Shown here: piece by piece, positions 10,003 to 16,993 of the stretch | Position numbering within the stretch: the stretch's first letter is position 1 | Layout: every line of letters starts with the position of its first letter | Assembly (NCBI GenBank): GCA_002070105.1 | Contig: MWCQ01000007.1 | Span: 1 to 64,000, forward strand | DNA from: Firmicutes bacterium ADurb.Bin193 | GTDB lineage: Bacteria > Bacillota > Clostridia > Monoglobales > Firm-18 | Reading direction: 5' to 3' | Length of the DNA: 64,000 nt | Made by a program: the position numbers and the translations under genes | Notes under the pieces: model-generated | Database searches by the model: none | What the model saw: only the letters and a program-made list of their open reading frames with translations | What the model was told of the DNA's origin: nothing

Positions 10003-10052
10003 CGAGCAACAAGAATCTTCCCCGTTTCGAGCAACAAGAATCTTCCCCGTTT
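10003..10052 (+). repeat. exact tandem duplication of a 25-bp unit
   Basis: The unit beginning CGAGCAACAAGAATC occurs twice without a mismatch (10003-10027 and 10028-10052), upstream of the divergent promoters at 9967-9995 and 10086-10114. It may be an extragenic repeat or a regulator site. Confidence 0.75.
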
Positions 10053-10085: not shown

Positions 10086-10114
10086 TTGACATAAAGAATA
10101 AAGCGGCGTATAAT
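10086..10114 (+). promoter_or_regulatory. consensus promoter of the ECF/ior operon
   Basis: TTGACA (10086-10091), 17-nt spacer, TATAAT (10109-10114). Transcription should start near 10121, only a few bases before the first GAG triplet of the leader. Confidence 0.85.
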
Positions 10115-10125
10115 ATATATTAACA

Positions 10126-10173
10126 GAGATGAGAAGAGAATAGGCAGGATGAGATGAGAAGAGATGAGACGAG
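10126..10173 (+). promoter_or_regulatory. TRAP (MtrB)-type RNA-binding site: (G/U)AG repeat leader
   Basis: Nine (G/U)AG triplets begin at 10126, 10131, 10136, 10141, 10151, 10156, 10161, 10166 and 10171, an exact 5-nt period. The tenth slot at 10146 is degenerate (CAG one base early). TRAP, the tryptophan-activated 11-subunit ring, binds RNA with 9-11 such triplets spaced by 2-3 nt in Bacillus trp, trpP and trpG (pabA) leaders. Right after the last triplet, CTGG (10174-10177) and TTAAT (10179-10183) can pair with ATTAA (10191-10195) and CCAG (10198-10201) to form an antiterminator that excludes the terminator at 10194-10226. I infer tryptophan-dependent attenuation. The mtrB gene itself is not in this window. 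Confidence 0.75.
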
Positions 10174-10193
10174 CTGGATTAATCATGTTAATT

Positions 10194-10226
10194 AAGACCA
10201 GACGCTTCATGTCGTGGTCTTTTTTT
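10194..10226 (+). terminator. leader attenuator terminator before the ECF operon
   Basis: AAGACCAGAC (10194-10203) pairs with GTC-G-TGGTCTT (10111-style arm at 10211-10221, one bulged G) across a 7-nt loop, followed by a run of T to 10226. Its 5' arm overlaps the 3' arm of the antiterminator (10191-10201), so only one of the two can form. Confidence 0.75.
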
Positions 10227-10279
10227 AATGGTCTGTCTAACCTTCATTCCTCTGTAATAAAGAAAACGGAGGTATTTTT

Positions 10280-10858
10280 ATGTCAAACACATCGGTAAAA
10301 AGAGAAGTAATCACACAGGCTCAGGGTGGGCTGAAAATCACCGACATCCTATTGATAGCCGTTTTGTTGGCGGCAGGTGCTGTACTCAAAAGTTTTTCCA
10401 ACATTATTGTCGGCTTTTCTCCATTAAAGCCCAATTTTGTAATCGCAATGTACTGTTTAGCGATTATACTGATAAAACCCCGCTTCTATGAATCGGTAAT
10501 AATCGGGTTTTTAGCGGGTGTTTTGTGTCAGTTCCTACCGAATAATACACCCTATGCCAACCTCATAAGCGAGGCGGTCGGCGGTGCGGTTATGGCGCTT
10601 CTTATTATGGTTCCCATGAAGCTGAATATCGGAAGATATTCGTTTAAGCCCGCCGTCACCACCTTTTTAAGCACGCTTTCAAGCGGGTTTACCTTCTTCT
10701 TCGTGCTTAAGCTTATGATACTTTTCGGGGCGAACCTAAACGCAAAGGCGTTTGCAACTTTTATGGTAATCATATTCGGAACCGCAGCGGTTAACGCAAT
10801 TATTGTTCAGATTTTGTATGCTCCGCTAAAGCTTGCACTCGGAAAGAAGGATATCTAA
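10280..10858 (+). CDS. ECF transporter S-component, TrpP-like (probable tryptophan)
   Basis: A 192-residue membrane protein with about five or six helices and SD ACGGAGG before ATG 10280. It is the substrate-binding unit of an energy-coupling factor importer and is followed immediately by both ATPases and EcfT. The pattern KPNFVIAMYCLAIILIKPRF, then IIGFLAGVLC, and a Ser/Gly-rich helix resembles the TrpP family of tryptophan transporters (Bacillus TrpP). The TRAP-like leader supports tryptophan as substrate. The fold is well supported, the exact substrate is inferred. The preceding 9942-10279 region is fully occupied by promoters, repeats and the attenuator. Confidence 0.75.
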   Translation: MSNTSVKREVITQAQGGLKITDILLIAVLLAAGAVLKSFSNIIVGFSPLKPNFVIAMYCLAIILIKPRFYESVIIGFLAGVLCQFLPNNTPYANLISEAVGGAVMALLIMVPMKLNIGRYSFKPAVTTFLSTLSSGFTFFFVLKLMILFGANLNAKAFATFMVIIFGTAAVNAIIVQILYAPLKLALGKKDI

Positions 10859-11707
10859 ATGATTGAAATCGACAACCTGACATTTCAATACAATAATTCC
10901 GACAGGCCTGCCTTAAAGGATATTTGTCTGCATGTAGAAAAGGGTGGCTTTACCGGAATTATAGGACCGTCGGGGGCGGGGAAGTCAACGCTTACCTACT
11001 GCATTAACGGCGTTGTGCCGCATTACCTTACGGGCGACTTTTACGGAAGCGTCAGGGTTTGCGGTCTGGACACCGTCGATAACGGCTGTATGGTTCTTTC
11101 CCGCCATGTCGGAAGTGTGTTTCAAGACCCCGAATCTCAGATTGTAACCTCCGTCGTGGAGGATGAGATTGCGTTCGGGCTTGAAAACTTTAATACTCCC
11201 TATGATGAAATGGAAAAAAGGATTACCGAAAGTCTTGAAATGGCGGATATCTCTCACCTCAGGCACAGAGATACCGCCGGACTTTCGGGCGGGCAGAAGC
11301 AAAGGGTAGCCATTGCGACCGCAATAGCGCTTCGCCCCGAGGTTCTTGTCCTTGACGAGCCTACGAGCGAGCTTGACCCCGAGGGGAGCGCAAGTATATT
11401 CGAAACCCTGAGCCGTCTTAACCACGAGTACGGTATGACAATAGTTATAGTGGAGCAAAAGGTTATGCTTCTTTCAAAGCACAGCAAACGCCTTATCGTT
11501 ATGCAGGACGGAAGGATTGTTCTGGACGGCATGACGAGGGAGGTTCTTCGCCACAGCGAAAAGCTTGTGGAGCTTGGCATAAACTGTCCCAGAGTTGTCG
11601 AGCTTGCGGGGAAGCTTAGCAAAAACGGTCTTTACCAGGGGGACTGCCCCACAGATGTCGATGAGGCGTATACTATGGTAACCGATATATTAAGGAGGCA
11701 GAAATGA
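10859..11707 (+). CDS. ECF transporter ATPase (EcfA1-type)
   Basis: A 282-residue ABC ATPase that begins directly after the S-component stop. It has Walker A GPSGAGKS (36-43), a Q-loop SVFQDPESQ, the signature LSGGQKQR and Walker B VLVLDEPTSELDP, then an H-loop-like region with EQK. It forms a heterodimer with the next ATPase and powers uptake through EcfT and the S-component at the membrane. It overlaps the next gene by 4 bp (ATGA), so they are translationally coupled. Confidence 0.9.
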   Translation: MIEIDNLTFQYNNSDRPALKDICLHVEKGGFTGIIGPSGAGKSTLTYCINGVVPHYLTGDFYGSVRVCGLDTVDNGCMVLSRHVGSVFQDPESQIVTSVVEDEIAFGLENFNTPYDEMEKRITESLEMADISHLRHRDTAGLSGGQKQRVAIATAIALRPEVLVLDEPTSELDPEGSASIFETLSRLNHEYGMTIVIVEQKVMLLSKHSKRLIVMQDGRIVLDGMTREVLRHSEKLVELGINCPRVVELAGKLSKNGLYQGDCPTDVDEAYTMVTDILRRQK

Positions 11708-12516
11708 TACAGGTAGACGGACTTTCGTTTTCATATTCAAAAAAACTGCCCTCCATTCTAAGTGAGGTTAGTTTTAATATACAAAAGGGTGAGTTTGTCG
11801 CACTTATCGGGCAGAACGGGGCGGGGAAAACCACTCTTTTAAAGCAGCTTAACGGGCTCTTGAAGCCGACAAGGGGAAGCGTCAAAATTTGCGGTATGGA
11901 CACAAGAACTCACCGCACAAGCCTTTTGGCAAGACATATAGGATATCTTTTTCAAAATCCCGACCATCAGATTTTTTGTGAAACGGTTGGAAGCGAAATA
12001 GAGTTCGGGCTCAAAAATATACTACAGGATGAGGATATAATAAATGAAAGAATTAAGGAAATATCCGCCCTTTTGTCACTCGGCGACAAGCTTGACAAAA
12101 GCCCGTTTTCACTCAGTCGGGGCGAAAGACAGCGTGTTGCGCTTGCAAGCGTTGTTGCCCTGAAGCCTGATATTCTGGTTCTTGACGAGCCTACGACGGG
12201 GCAGGATTACAGGGAATGTATGGAGATTATGGATATTGTAAAGGGTCTTAACGACAGTGGCACAACAGTAATAATGGTGTCGCATGATATGGAGGTTGTC
12301 GCCGAATATGCGAGGCGAACGATTGTGCTTCGGGGCGGAACCGTCGCCGCGGACGGTGCTACCCCGGATATATTCCGAAAAACCGATATTCTCTCATCCT
12401 CCAATCTTCGCCCTCCGCAGATTGTTGAGCTTGCCTTGAAATTCGAGGACGGGTTTCATACGGTCGTAACCGCGGAGGATATGTACTGTGAAATAGCAAG
12501 GAGGTGCGGGAAATGA
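11704..12516 (+). CDS. ECF transporter ATPase (EcfA2-type)
   Basis: A 270-residue partner ATPase. It has Walker A GQNGAGKT, Q-loop YLFQNPDHQ, a modified signature LSRGERQR instead of LSGGQ, Walker B ILVLDEPTTGQD and H-loop SHD. The LSRGE form is common in one of the two ECF ATPases. It overlaps its neighbours at both ends through ATGA junctions, showing a tightly coupled operon. Confidence 0.9.
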   Translation: MIQVDGLSFSYSKKLPSILSEVSFNIQKGEFVALIGQNGAGKTTLLKQLNGLLKPTRGSVKICGMDTRTHRTSLLARHIGYLFQNPDHQIFCETVGSEIEFGLKNILQDEDIINERIKEISALLSLGDKLDKSPFSLSRGERQRVALASVVALKPDILVLDEPTTGQDYRECMEIMDIVKGLNDSGTTVIMVSHDMEVVAEYARRTIVLRGGTVAADGATPDIFRKTDILSSSNLRPPQIVELALKFEDGFHTVVTAEDMYCEIARRCGK

Positions 12517-13268
12517 AAAGCCTTCTTACCTATGTAAACGGCGAATCGTTTTTTCATCGGCTTCACCCTCTTACAAAGCTTGCATGGGCTGTTGCCGCCT
12601 GTGTGGCGTGCTTTGCGTCGGGGAGCCTGCCGTTTGTTGCGGCGATGGTCATACTTTGTATATTGATTGCGGTATTCGGAGGAATATTCTCCGAGGCGCT
12701 TTCTGTTTTGAAGTTCTTCGGAGTTGTTGCGGCGATATTGTTTGTGCTTCAAATCGTTTTTGTAAGATCGGGCATTGTTGTTATAAGCCTCGGCGGGTTT
12801 TCCGTTACGGACGAGGGTCTTTTGGCGGCGTTTTTTGTGTCGCTTCGCACGGTAGGCTCGCTTGCGCCGCTTTCGCTTATGATTATGTTCACTCCGACAA
12901 CCGCGCTTTCCGCCGCGCTTACCGATAATCTTAGGGTTCCTTACAAATACACCTTTATCGTTACCGCCGCGCTTAGGTTTATCCCCACCTTTACGGATGA
13001 GATGGACCACATCGTTCAGGCGCAAATTTCAAGAGGGCATGCGATTGACGGTAAAAACCCTGTAAAGAGATTTTTCGGGATTTTACCTATGAGTATTCCA
13101 CTTTTGGTGTCATCAGTGAGGAGGATTGACCAAATGGCGATTTCCCTTGAAACGCGGGGGTTCGGCCTGGGTGTTCGCTCAACCTATAAAAAACAAAGCT
13201 TTAAGGCGGGCGATTTTATTGCCCTTGCTTTTGTTGCGCTTATTCTTGTATTGGGTATTGCATTGTAG
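12513..13268 (+). CDS. ECF transporter transmembrane subunit EcfT
   Basis: About 251 residues, starting at ATG 12513 inside the ATGA overlap with the upstream gene, 8 nt after AAGGAGG. A GTG at 12504 is the alternative. N-terminal membrane helices are followed by the cytoplasmic coupling helices carrying the two Arg-Gly motifs (QAQISRGHA and SLETRGFG), which contact the ATPases. This completes a dedicated (group I type) ECF importer. Confidence 0.9.
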   Translation: MKSLLTYVNGESFFHRLHPLTKLAWAVAACVACFASGSLPFVAAMVILCILIAVFGGIFSEALSVLKFFGVVAAILFVLQIVFVRSGIVVISLGGFSVTDEGLLAAFFVSLRTVGSLAPLSLMIMFTPTTALSAALTDNLRVPYKYTFIVTAALRFIPTFTDEMDHIVQAQISRGHAIDGKNPVKRFFGILPMSIPLLVSSVRRIDQMAISLETRGFGLGVRSTYKKQSFKAGDFIALAFVALILVLGIAL

Positions 13269-13317: not shown

Positions 13318-15111
13318 ATGAAAAAGCTTCTTATGGGAAATGAGGCCATCGCTTTCGGTGCGATTGATGCGGGAGTTAAAATTGTTTCGGGATATCCCGG
13401 AACGCCGTCGACGGAAATTTTGGAAACCGTTGCAAGGGAAAATGACGGTGGTATATATGTCGAATGGTCCGTTAACGAAAAGGTTGCGCTTGAGGTTGCC
13501 GCTGGGGCAAGCTATGCCGGAGCGCGCACCATGGTCACTATGAAGCAGGTCGGGCTTAATGTCGCGGGTGACCCGCTTATGAGCCTTTCGTATATCGGGG
13601 TAAAAGGCGGTATGGTTGTTGTTGTCGCGGACGACCCCGGCCCTTTGTCCTCACAGACGGAGCAGGACACGCGCCACTATGCAAGGTTTTCCAATCTTCC
13701 CGTTTTTGACCCCTCTACGCCGGAGGAGGCTTACGAAATGACGATTGCCGCCTTTGAGCTTTCGGAAAAAATTTGCCTCCCTGTTTTTTTGCGCCCAACC
13801 ACAAGGGTATGCCACGCCTGCGCATCGGTTGAAACGGTGGGAAAGCAAAAGACTTATGAATCGGAGGGCTTTATAAAGGACCCCAAATGGGTTATATTCC
13901 CCCCTCTTACGCTGAAAAAGCATAGGGAGCTTGAGCAAAAGCAGGGCGAAATTGCGAATATGTTTGAGGACAGTCCCTTTAATTACATAAAAGGCAGCGG
14001 CACAATAGGTGTAGCCGCTTCGGGTGCGGCATACACCTATGTTTTGGAGGCACTGAAATATCTTAAAACGGATATACGGCTTTTTAAGGTGGGAACGCCC
14101 TATCCTATGCCACCCGAAATGTCAAAAGCATTTCTTTCGGGTCTTTCAAAGGTTTTGGTGGTTGAGGAGCTTGACCCCGTAATCGAGGAGTCGCTTATTG
14201 AAACCGCATACAAAAACAAATTTGATATAAAGATATTCGGCAAAAAGACCGACAGCCTTCCCTTTGCGGGCGAGTATTCCTTTGATACCGTTGCAAGGGC
14301 GCTTGAGGCCTTTACGGGTGAGAGTATAGATATGCCCCGCGTGCCTCAAGCCGAAAACCTTCCCAACCGCCCGCCCGTTCTTTGTGCGGGCTGTCCGCAC
14401 CGTGCTTCCTTTTACGCCGTAAAGCAGGCTATGAAGGGGAAAAAGGCTGTGTTTACGGGCGACATAGGCTGTTACACCCTCGGGAACGCCAAACCGCTTG
14501 AGATGACCGATACCTGTCTTTGTATGGGTGCGGGAATTACCATAGCGCAGGGACTTCACCGCGCCGAGCCCGATGTGGCGCAGATTGCATTTGTCGGGGA
14601 TTCGACATTTTTTCATACGGGAATACCCGGCATTGTAAATGCGGTGTATAACGGTACTGACATAACCGTTGCGGTGTTGGACAACAGCACCACCGCTATG
14701 ACGGGGCATCAGCCCCACCCCGGAATGGGCAAAACCATGATGGGTGAGGATGTGGGTAAAATAGACATTTACTCCATACTAAAAGCAATCGGGGTCGGAT
14801 ATATAGAAAGAGTAAATCCGTTTGAACGGCAAAAGGCAATCGATTCCGTGAAAAACGCCGTTTCCCACAAGGGCGTTTCGGCGGTAATTTTTGAGGCGCC
14901 GTGTATTGCACTGTTTAAGCCCCAGCGCATCTTTACCGTTAAAGCCGATGCCTGCAGTTTCTGCAAAAAGTGCATCAGAGAGGTCGGCTGTCCCGCAATG
15001 TGTGCGGGAGGCGGTAATAAGGTTTATATTGAGCCGTCGCTCTGCTATGGCTGTGGGCTTTGCGAAGGGCTTTGCCCATGTAGTGCGATTGGAGTAAAAA
15101 GCGTTAACTAA
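13318..15111 (+). CDS. iorA: indolepyruvate:ferredoxin oxidoreductase, alpha subunit
   Basis: About 597 residues starting at ATG 13318 (MKKLLMGNEAIAFG). Longer frames to 13126 overlap ecfT and are not needed. IorA fuses the pyrimidine and thiamine-diphosphate-binding domains of 2-oxoacid oxidoreductases: SGYPGTPSTE near the N-terminus and GDIGCYTLG followed by CLCMGAG for ThDP/Mg2+. The C-terminus binds two [4Fe-4S] clusters (CSFCKKC...C and CYGCGLCEGLCP). The enzyme interconverts arylpyruvates with aryl-acetyl-CoA, CO2 and reduced ferredoxin. It lies 49 bp after ecfT and is probably read from the attenuated promoter. A weak internal promoter near the ecfT stop is possible. Confidence 0.92.
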   Translation: MKKLLMGNEAIAFGAIDAGVKIVSGYPGTPSTEILETVARENDGGIYVEWSVNEKVALEVAAGASYAGARTMVTMKQVGLNVAGDPLMSLSYIGVKGGMVVVVADDPGPLSSQTEQDTRHYARFSNLPVFDPSTPEEAYEMTIAAFELSEKICLPVFLRPTTRVCHACASVETVGKQKTYESEGFIKDPKWVIFPPLTLKKHRELEQKQGEIANMFEDSPFNYIKGSGTIGVAASGAAYTYVLEALKYLKTDIRLFKVGTPYPMPPEMSKAFLSGLSKVLVVEELDPVIEESLIETAYKNKFDIKIFGKKTDSLPFAGEYSFDTVARALEAFTGESIDMPRVPQAENLPNRPPVLCAGCPHRASFYAVKQAMKGKKAVFTGDIGCYTLGNAKPLEMTDTCLCMGAGITIAQGLHRAEPDVAQIAFVGDSTFFHTGIPGIVNAVYNGTDITVAVLDNSTTAMTGHQPHPGMGKTMMGEDVGKIDIYSILKAIGVGYIERVNPFERQKAIDSVKNAVSHKGVSAVIFEAPCIALFKPQRIFTVKADACSFCKKCIREVGCPAMCAGGGNKVYIEPSLCYGCGLCEGLCPCSAIGVKSVN

Positions 15112-15152: not shown

Positions 15153-15761
15153 ATGAATTATAATATACTTATCGCGGGAGTCGGAGGTCAGGGGACAATT
15201 TTAGCCTCCCGTATTCTTGCCTTATGTGCTATTTCGCAAGGGGCTTTCGCCAGGACGGGTGAGACGATAGGAATGTCCCAAAGAGGCGGCTGTGTCGCAA
15301 GCCATGTCCGAATGGGAAGCGCCGATTTTGCTGCATACATACCGCCCGGCTGTGCCGATCTGCTCCTTAGTTTTGAGCTTTGTGAGGCTGCAAGGTCATT
15401 GCCTTTTTTGCGCCCAGAGGGTGCTTGTATCGTTAATACCGACATTATTAAGCCTGTAACAGTTTCTCTCGGCAGTCAGGAGTATGACAGCGAGAGAATA
15501 ATCGGATATATAAAACAAAACAATAAAAATCCGTTGTTTATTGATGCCTACTCGCTTGCGCAGGAGGCGGGCTCGGTTAAGGCGGTTAATGTGGTACTGC
15601 TCGGCGCGGCGCTCGGTGCGGGCGTTGTTCCGCTTGAAAAAGAGGCTCTAACTGCGGCGGTACTTTGTAATGTTCCCGAAAAATTTGCCGAATTAAACCT
15701 TAAAGCATTTGATATGGGCTTTGATTATGCAAAAAGAGCGGCCGGAAAGGTTATGGTATGA
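15153..15761 (+). CDS. iorB: indolepyruvate:ferredoxin oxidoreductase, beta subunit
   Basis: A 202-residue gamma-domain protein of 2-oxoacid oxidoreductases. The N-terminal AGVGGQGT Rossmann-like motif is followed by GETIGMSQRGGCVASHVRMG, typical of IorB. It pairs with IorA to form the active enzyme. It overlaps the paaK-like gene by 4 bp, so the three genes are co-expressed. Confidence 0.92.
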   Translation: MNYNILIAGVGGQGTILASRILALCAISQGAFARTGETIGMSQRGGCVASHVRMGSADFAAYIPPGCADLLLSFELCEAARSLPFLRPEGACIVNTDIIKPVTVSLGSQEYDSERIIGYIKQNNKNPLFIDAYSLAQEAGSVKAVNVVLLGAALGAGVVPLEKEALTAAVLCNVPEKFAELNLKAFDMGFDYAKRAAGKVMV

Positions 15762-16993
15762 TGAACAAAGAGATATTTGAAAAAATAAAGGAACTTGTTG
15801 CGAGGGTTGAGTGTGACAGCCCGTTTTACAGGGAAAAGTTTAAGTCGGCGGGAATTACCGCTAAAAGCTTAAAGGAATTTTCGGACTTTGAGAAGATACC
15901 CTTTTCCGACAAAGCCGAGCTTCGGGTTGCGTACCCCTTAGGGCTTATGTCTGTCCCGCGAAGCGAGGTTGTTAGGATTCACTCATCGTCCGGCACCACG
16001 GGCTCGCCTGTTATTATTCCCTACACCAAAAAAGATGTCGAGGACTGGACGGCTATGTTCGCGCGCTGTTACGAAACGGCGGGCGTTACATGTGACGATG
16101 TTGTTCAGGTAACGCCGGGATATGGGCTTTGGACTGCGGGAATCGGCTTTCAGGCGGGAGCGGAGCGGGTAGGCGCAATGGTCGTGCCCATGGGCCCCGG
16201 CAACACCGACAAACAGCTTCAAATGATGACAGACCTTGAAAGCACCGTTTTTTGTTCTACCTCGTCATACGCCTTGCTTATAGCCGAGGAGGTTCAGAAA
16301 AGGGGATTAAGGGACAGAATTAAGCTTAAAAAGGGAATTATAGGCTCGGAGCGCTGGGGAGATCTTATGCGCGGGAGGATAGAAAGTGAGCTTGGTATTG
16401 AGCTTTTTGACATTTACGGTCTTACCGAGGTTTACGGCCCCGGGATTGCAATAGACTGCCCCTGTCATTGCGGTATGCATTACTGGGACGATTACCTTTA
16501 TTTTGAGATTATAGATTCTGACGGCATGGTGCTTCCGCACGGGGAAACGGGCGAGCTTGTCATAACCACGCTATGCAAGGAGGGCGCGCCCCTTGTCCGT
16601 TACAGGACGCACGATTTGACAAGGATTATTCCGTCAAAGTGCAAATGCGGAAGTGTTTATCCGATGATTGACAGAATTGTCGGAAGAACAGACGATATGA
16701 TTAAGGTTAAGGGGGTAAACATCTACCCCGCCAACATAGACACGCTCCTCAAAGATGTTGACGGCGCAAGCAGTGAGTATCAGATTATTATTGACCACAA
16801 AAACGGCAGGGACACCGTGCTACTTAAGGTGGAGAAAAAGGACGGTGCGGACAAAAACACGGTAGAGCGCACCGTTTGTGAGCTTTTCAAAAAGCGTATA
16901 GGCATAGCGATTGAGGTTGATGCGCTTTGTATCGGCGAGATACCGCGAAGCGAAAAGAAAAGCCGCAGGGTGTTTGATTACAGGGAATGTTGA
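15758..16993 (+). CDS. phenylacetate-CoA ligase-like (aryl-CoA ligase, PaaK family)
   Basis: A 411-residue ANL-superfamily adenylating enzyme. It has the phosphate loop HSSSGTTGSP, an AMP-binding motif YGLTEVYGPG, the hinge DLTRI and a PaaK-type C-terminal domain (DDMIKVKGVNIYP ... EKKSRRVFDYR). It activates aryl acids such as phenylacetate or indoleacetate to CoA esters with ATP. Placement after iorAB means it shares the aryl-acetyl-CoA intermediate with that enzyme. The actual acid used is not determined by sequence; the TrpP-like transporter and leader favour indoleacetate. Confidence 0.88.
   Translation: MMNKEIFEKIKELVARVECDSPFYREKFKSAGITAKSLKEFSDFEKIPFSDKAELRVAYPLGLMSVPRSEVVRIHSSSGTTGSPVIIPYTKKDVEDWTAMFARCYETAGVTCDDVVQVTPGYGLWTAGIGFQAGAERVGAMVVPMGPGNTDKQLQMMTDLESTVFCSTSSYALLIAEEVQKRGLRDRIKLKKGIIGSERWGDLMRGRIESELGIELFDIYGLTEVYGPGIAIDCPCHCGMHYWDDYLYFEIIDSDGMVLPHGETGELVITTLCKEGAPLVRYRTHDLTRIIPSKCKCGSVYPMIDRIVGRTDDMIKVKGVNIYPANIDTLLKDVDGASSEYQIIIDHKNGRDTVLLKVEKKDGADKNTVERTVCELFKKRIGIAIEVDALCIGEIPRSEKKSRRVFDYREC

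Follow-up and report, generated by a model that had tools for sequence, protein, structure and literature searches.

An operon joining a TrpP-type ECF transporter to indolepyruvate oxidoreductase and PaaK genes in Firmicutes bacterium ADurb.Bin193 is very probably under the control of TRAP (MtrB), with both the binding and the direction of its effect predicted from the leader sequence. Two switches, one transcriptional and one translational, seem to be combined in the leader, and the target genes point to a role for TRAP in tryptophan uptake and salvage.

Promoter, triplet array and MtrB

The window, here the whole 64,000-nt stretch of DNA that was analysed, carries on its forward strand a sigma-A promoter (10086-10114) matching 12/12 consensus bases, with TTGACA at 10086-10091, a 17-nt spacer and TATAAT at 10109-10114, as the initial annotation had proposed. 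The predicted TRAP-binding array (10126-10173, forward strand) begins about 12 nt 3' of the -10 box and consists of nine GAG or UAG triplets in ten 5-nt slots, starting at 10126, 10131, 10136, 10141, 10151, 10156, 10161, 10166 and 10171 at exact 5-nt spacing with 2-nt spacers; the slot at 10146 is the degenerate AGG. This array, too, had been described from the sequence, and its description was upheld by pattern scan and shuffling: a nine-triplet pattern with at most three mismatches matched 0 of 100 dinucleotide-shuffled copies of the 64 kb, while the real sequence gave two matches only, the array site and its own shifted register. A TRAP-regulated leader is expected to carry about 11 such triplets, with spacers of 2-3 nt, close to the start of its transcript. 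The number of triplets is a counter-point to TRAP control, as nine clean triplets and one degenerate slot compare with 11 in B. subtilis. The Rfam model Trp_leader_2 scored 19 bits on the leader against a gathering score of 100, which is not significant, and a T-box was considered and rejected, no T-box or other Rfam family exceeding its threshold. Just 5' of the promoter, at 10003-10052, lies a 24-nt direct repeat in two copies (CGAGCAACAAGAATCTTCCCCGTTT-like).

The genome (G000) contains a single mtrB gene (G000:C10:100914-101111), encoding a 75 aa protein that matches PF02081 at 125 bits and exceeds the cut-off of NF009724 in searches with Pfam and NCBIfam profiles. Its alignment with the solved G. 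stearothermophilus TRAP (E 1.4e-29) spans nearly the full protein; among the RNA-contacting positions, K37 and K56 are kept and R58 is conservatively replaced by K. The initial annotation had made its reading depend on an mtrB homologue, and one is present; together with the retention of the array in relatives (see below), this supports its view that the layout is the one used by TRAP in Bacillus trp leaders. A gene for anti-TRAP (rtpA), which it had also suggested seeking, was not recognisable in the genome by profile search with PF15777, whose matches, below cut-off and lying in 379- and 480-codon frames, were rejected as anti-TRAP.

Operon genes and proposed tryptophan salvage

Profile matches confirmed the earlier assignment of an ECF importer and ior/paaK genes 3' of the leader, all on the forward strand. 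The importer set is complete at the locus, with a predicted tryptophan-importing S component of the TrpP family (10280-10858), the ATPases EcfA (10859-11707) and EcfA' (11704-12516), both identified by profile matches, and the T component EcfT (12504-13268; PF02361). These genes are followed by the alpha subunit of indolepyruvate:ferredoxin oxidoreductase, IorA (13318-15111; TIGR03336 over cut-off), the beta subunit IorB (15153-15761), which matches PF01558 and scores below the equivalog cut-offs of the IOR_beta models, and a PaaK-type arylacetate:CoA ligase (15758-16993; TIGR02155, E 3e-115, below the equivalog cut-off).

Orthologues tie the S component to the TrpP family of tryptophan transporters and make tryptophan its predicted substrate: orthologues that are 45-58% identical exceed the PF17099 (TrpP) cut-off (L069, L073, L077, L080, L081), while the window's own protein alone falls below it. 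Its predicted model (pLDDT 79) has ECF S components or an ECF transporter as its eight best matches in the PDB, at TM 0.45-0.60 with E-values that are not significant, and a profile sequence search with the S component against the PDB gave no match. In the 99.8% complete genome there is no match to PF00218 for trpC (IGPS), the sole biosynthetic gene covered, and the same profile was found in all 14 control genomes.

Searching the genome for arrays of six triplets with at most two mismatches, as had been proposed, revealed one array besides that of the window: six exact triplets (G000:C2:91518-91545) in the leader of a TrpB2-type gene. Here UAGCAGAG at the 5' end of the array pairs with CUCUGCUA as an antiterminator, and CUCUGCUA shares bases with the 5' arm of the competing terminator, AUUCCUC...GAGGAAU-U6.

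As trpC and a recognisable anti-TRAP gene are absent, the role of TRAP in this genome seems to be the control of tryptophan uptake and salvage, not of a trp operon. The operon would import tryptophan through the TrpP-type ECF transporter, whose substrate is the predicted one; the PaaK-type ligase and IorAB, running reductively, would convert indole-acetate to indolepyruvate, from which tryptophan would be formed by transamination, and TrpB2 would convert indole to tryptophan. The TrpP-like S component, the precedent of B. subtilis trpP and the lack of trpC and anti-TRAP make a salvage regulon the most economical reading. The initial annotation regarded an ECF importer with indolepyruvate oxidoreductase (IOR) in this position as unusual; the genes stand as named, and the context is explained by the TrpP-like S component and by B. 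subtilis trpP being itself a TRAP target. That IOR and PaaK work in the salvage (reductive) direction is moderately probable. The wider proposal is about evenly poised: that TRAP has been rewired here from regulating the trp operon to serving as sensor for a tryptophan economy based on salvage alone, made up of the TrpP-ECF transporter, PaaK with reductive IOR, and TrpB2, and working without trpC or anti-TRAP.

A less probable but serious alternative retains TRAP regulation and takes the substrate to be an arylacetate or another indole compound, or has IOR and PaaK working oxidatively in tryptophan breakdown. IOR is known from amino-acid fermentation, the sequence reveals neither substrate nor direction, and the S component is remote from TrpP, with 48.5 bits against PF17099 in the best tabulated orthologue. 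However, repression by tryptophan suits uptake and synthesis rather than breakdown, a reductive route would be useful in a genome with no trpC, and the other presumed TRAP target in the same genome is TrpB2; salvage of tryptophan is the preferred reading.

Predicted attenuation and Shine-Dalgarno sequestration

The intrinsic terminator proposed as the attenuator (10194-10226, forward strand) proved stable, at -11.3 kcal/mol with a z of -3.2 and a U7 tail; it was not flagged by a simple consensus terminator scan, perhaps because its stem is bulged. The proposed antiterminator at 10174-10201 stood in part: the local hairpin exists and is weak (-4.0 kcal/mol, z -1.2), and its limits were not upheld, for in the minimum-energy fold triplets of the array pair with the arm and loop of the terminator, so that the likely competitor overlaps the array. 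The antiterminator region is accordingly drawn at 10146-10226 (forward strand), taking in both the hairpin and these pairings. For the whole leader, the z-score of the minimum-energy fold was not informative (z = -0.3). When the array was blocked in folding calculations, the probability that the terminator pairs rose from 0.585 to 0.928 in the window's leader, from 0.131 to 0.866 in that of the relative L098 and from 0.026 to 0.997 in L102. In L097, L101, L103 and L105 the terminator folds with or without a free array and there was no real change, in static folding, which leaves the order of transcription out of account.

The leader also appears to contain a conserved switch that sequesters the Shine-Dalgarno (SD) sequence, which was missed by the first reading. 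In the sequestering hairpin (10249-10272, forward strand), supported by folding and by relatives, CCUCUGU (10249-10255) faces ACGGAGG (10266-10272). An anti-sequester arm, ACAGAG (10123-10128, forward strand), overlaps the first GAG and is predicted to pair with CUCUGU (10250-10255), which frees the SD sequence GGAGG (10268-10272) from the CCUC that otherwise sequesters it. Blocking the array lowered the probability of an open SD in the window's leader from 0.231 to 0.004, and lowered it or left it unchanged in 17/17 leaders; these probabilities are low in absolute terms even without TRAP, and in control calculations the blocking of other leader stretches sometimes lowered SD opening too. Across 14 distinct leaders the helix between array and anti-SD element was paired in 100% of cells, against 33-52% in slid controls, with double changes at two of its six pairs (GC/AU, and CG/UA with a UG intermediate) that represent only 2-3 independent events.

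On the predicted folds, the SD switch is better conserved than attenuation of transcription, because the folds of some relatives are insensitive to the array and no convincing terminator was found in the Ruminiclostridium leaders. The terminators of relatives were scored on a strict hairpin; automated detection picked over-long hairpins in several. It is possible, if unlikely, that TRAP acts essentially on translation through SD sequestration, the hairpin at 10194-10226 being minor or constitutive: the SD switch is kept in all 15 leaders of one register, the Ruminiclostridium leaders lack a terminator, and several relatives fold theirs whether the array is free or not. Set against this are the strong competition between array and terminator predicted by folding in the window, L098 and L102, and the hairpin and U run kept at the same place in the leaders of the Thermoclostridium group.

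With both switches in operation, plentiful tryptophan would cause TRAP to wrap the leader, as it is being transcribed, along the triplets at 10126-10173. The array could then no longer pair with the terminator region, and transcription would stop at 10226. In transcripts that escape, TRAP would keep the 5' end of the array (10123-10128) off the anti-SD element (10249-10255), which, once freed, would close over the SD sequence (10268-10272) and leave the first gene untranslated. When tryptophan is scarce, the array would pair away both hairpins and the operon would be made.

Arrays and MtrB in related genomes

Within the same order the S component was found in no genome besides Firmicutes bacterium ADurb.Bin193, and the operon was therefore compared at class level, where the component occurs in 14/391 genomes (13 besides this one). 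A triplet array lies in the leader or over the start in 14/14 of these loci (13/13 homologues), the layout of promoter followed by array is common to every aligned leader, and across species the spacer bases vary while the triplets persist. The array sought in relatives is thus present in 13 further genomes, all with mtrB, and the loss of periodicity that the initial annotation had named as a sign against its reading was not seen. The full S-EcfA-EcfA'-EcfT-IorA-IorB-PaaK operon recurs in Thermoclostridium-group genomes and in two that belong to a different family (f26), and the Ruminiclostridium loci hold the transporter genes only, within the stretches covered.

The gene mtrB was found in 28/51 genomes of the order and 89/391 of the class. 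It is present in 14/14 genomes with the S component against 89/391 overall (Fisher p 4e-10), and exact six-triplet arrays occur in 28/89 mtrB-positive against 9/302 mtrB-negative genomes of the class (p 6e-13), both p values overstating independence as the compared genomes are related. Class-wide, the genes 3' of arrays include trpE, trpB, trpG, TrpB2, trpX-type genes and the TrpP-type ECF transporter; within the order, arrays precede TrpB2-type genes (G003, G012, G027), trpE (G009, G026), trpB (G037) and a trpX-like ABC transporter (G004-G007, G023). In a fixed-pattern search, the arrays of mtrB-negative genomes were mostly simple tandem repeats. That the GAG array of the window is itself a chance or low-complexity repeat, or the site of another RNA-binding protein, is highly improbable, for although some mtrB-negative genomes (G130, G157, G182, G264) contain simple tandem repeats made of units like these, the empty shuffles, the triplets that outlast their spacers across species and the tight coupling of arrays to mtrB and tryptophan genes all speak against it.

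Several further loci were recorded. Arrays lie before trpX-like ABC transporter genes in L042-L045 and L051, and in L042-L045 the start codon falls within GAGAUGAGAUGAG, which suggests that TRAP has a further site there, over the region of initiation. Array-bearing leaders occur in G007 (94% complete) and G200 (61%), where mtrB was not found, reflecting either missing contigs or loss of mtrB. In L180 (G158) an array stands before an unnamed gene, 3' of which lies a chorismate-mutase-like frame; this is possibly another TRAP target.

In a scan of named genomes, the S component was also found in Treponema, Synergistaceae and others, with arrays of at least four triplets in 12/80 loci. Among the 43 named genomes covered for mtrB, the gene is present in 12/12 with an array and 4/31 without; in the four genomes with mtrB and no array, the leader resembles a T-box and a weaker GAG-rich run lies at the start codon. 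T-box-like leaders (AAGGTGGTACCGC) 5' of the S gene, with imperfect GAG-rich arrays around its start codon, were observed in L112, L114, L116, L124 and L122 (Synergistaceae and one Clostridiales, mtrB-positive). L075 (reverse strand) has a T-box at 2111-2357 (RF00230, 86.8 bits, slightly short of the gathering score) and, 3' of it, a GAG array over the S start codon, possibly a tandem sensing of uncharged tRNA and free tryptophan.

Comparison with known systems

The mechanism proposed here is already known; what is new in the searchable literature, with subscription journals mostly outside the search, is the target operon, the use of TRAP in a genome that lacks trpC, and the series that the leader designs form. 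A search for TRAP with ECF, Carboxydothermus or trpXYZ found nothing relevant, again with subscription journals outside its range. TRAP has been treated as a Bacilli regulator whose target is the synthesis of tryptophan (PMC3435397, PMC11255114). In the present results it is widely distributed in Clostridia, and present in some Synergistaceae, with another set of targets, although earlier comparative work may exist in subscription journals. The leaders form a natural series, from attenuator with SD switch, to SD switch alone, to a start-codon array behind a T-box, through which the evolution of one RNA-binding mechanism becomes testable. The results also suggest a function for the ECF transporter and link IOR and PaaK to tryptophan supply, which bears on the sharing of indole compounds among anaerobes.

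Among the closest known systems is the leader of B. subtilis trpEDCFBA, which likewise has a (G/U)AG array near its 5' end, an antiterminator competing with a terminator, and an SD-blocking hairpin 3' of the array (PMC3913778, PMC11255114); the two-switch logic of the trpE leader (PMC11255114) is that proposed for the window. The window differs in its predicted target, a TrpP-type ECF transporter and IorAB-PaaK in place of trpEDCFBA, in having ten slots where B. subtilis has eleven, and in that the 5' end of its array also serves as anti-sequester arm. B. subtilis trpP (yhaG) encodes a TRAP-repressed tryptophan transporter (PMC11255114), so that a TrpP-family transporter is a TRAP target in both; in B. 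subtilis, however, TRAP sits directly on the region of translation initiation (PMC11255114), whereas in the window a distant array would act through RNA structure. Arrays lying directly over the start codon occur in relatives such as L075. The tryptophan T-box leaders of Firmicutes are similarly tryptophan-responsive and stand before transport or biosynthesis genes; the window's leader has none, and some mtrB-positive relatives carry a T-box together with an array. In methanogens and rumen bacteria, the route from arylacetates to amino acids consists of IOR and an acyl-CoA ligase. The window shares this pairing of IorAB with an arylacetate CoA ligase and differs in joining it to a tryptophan importer under probable TRAP control.
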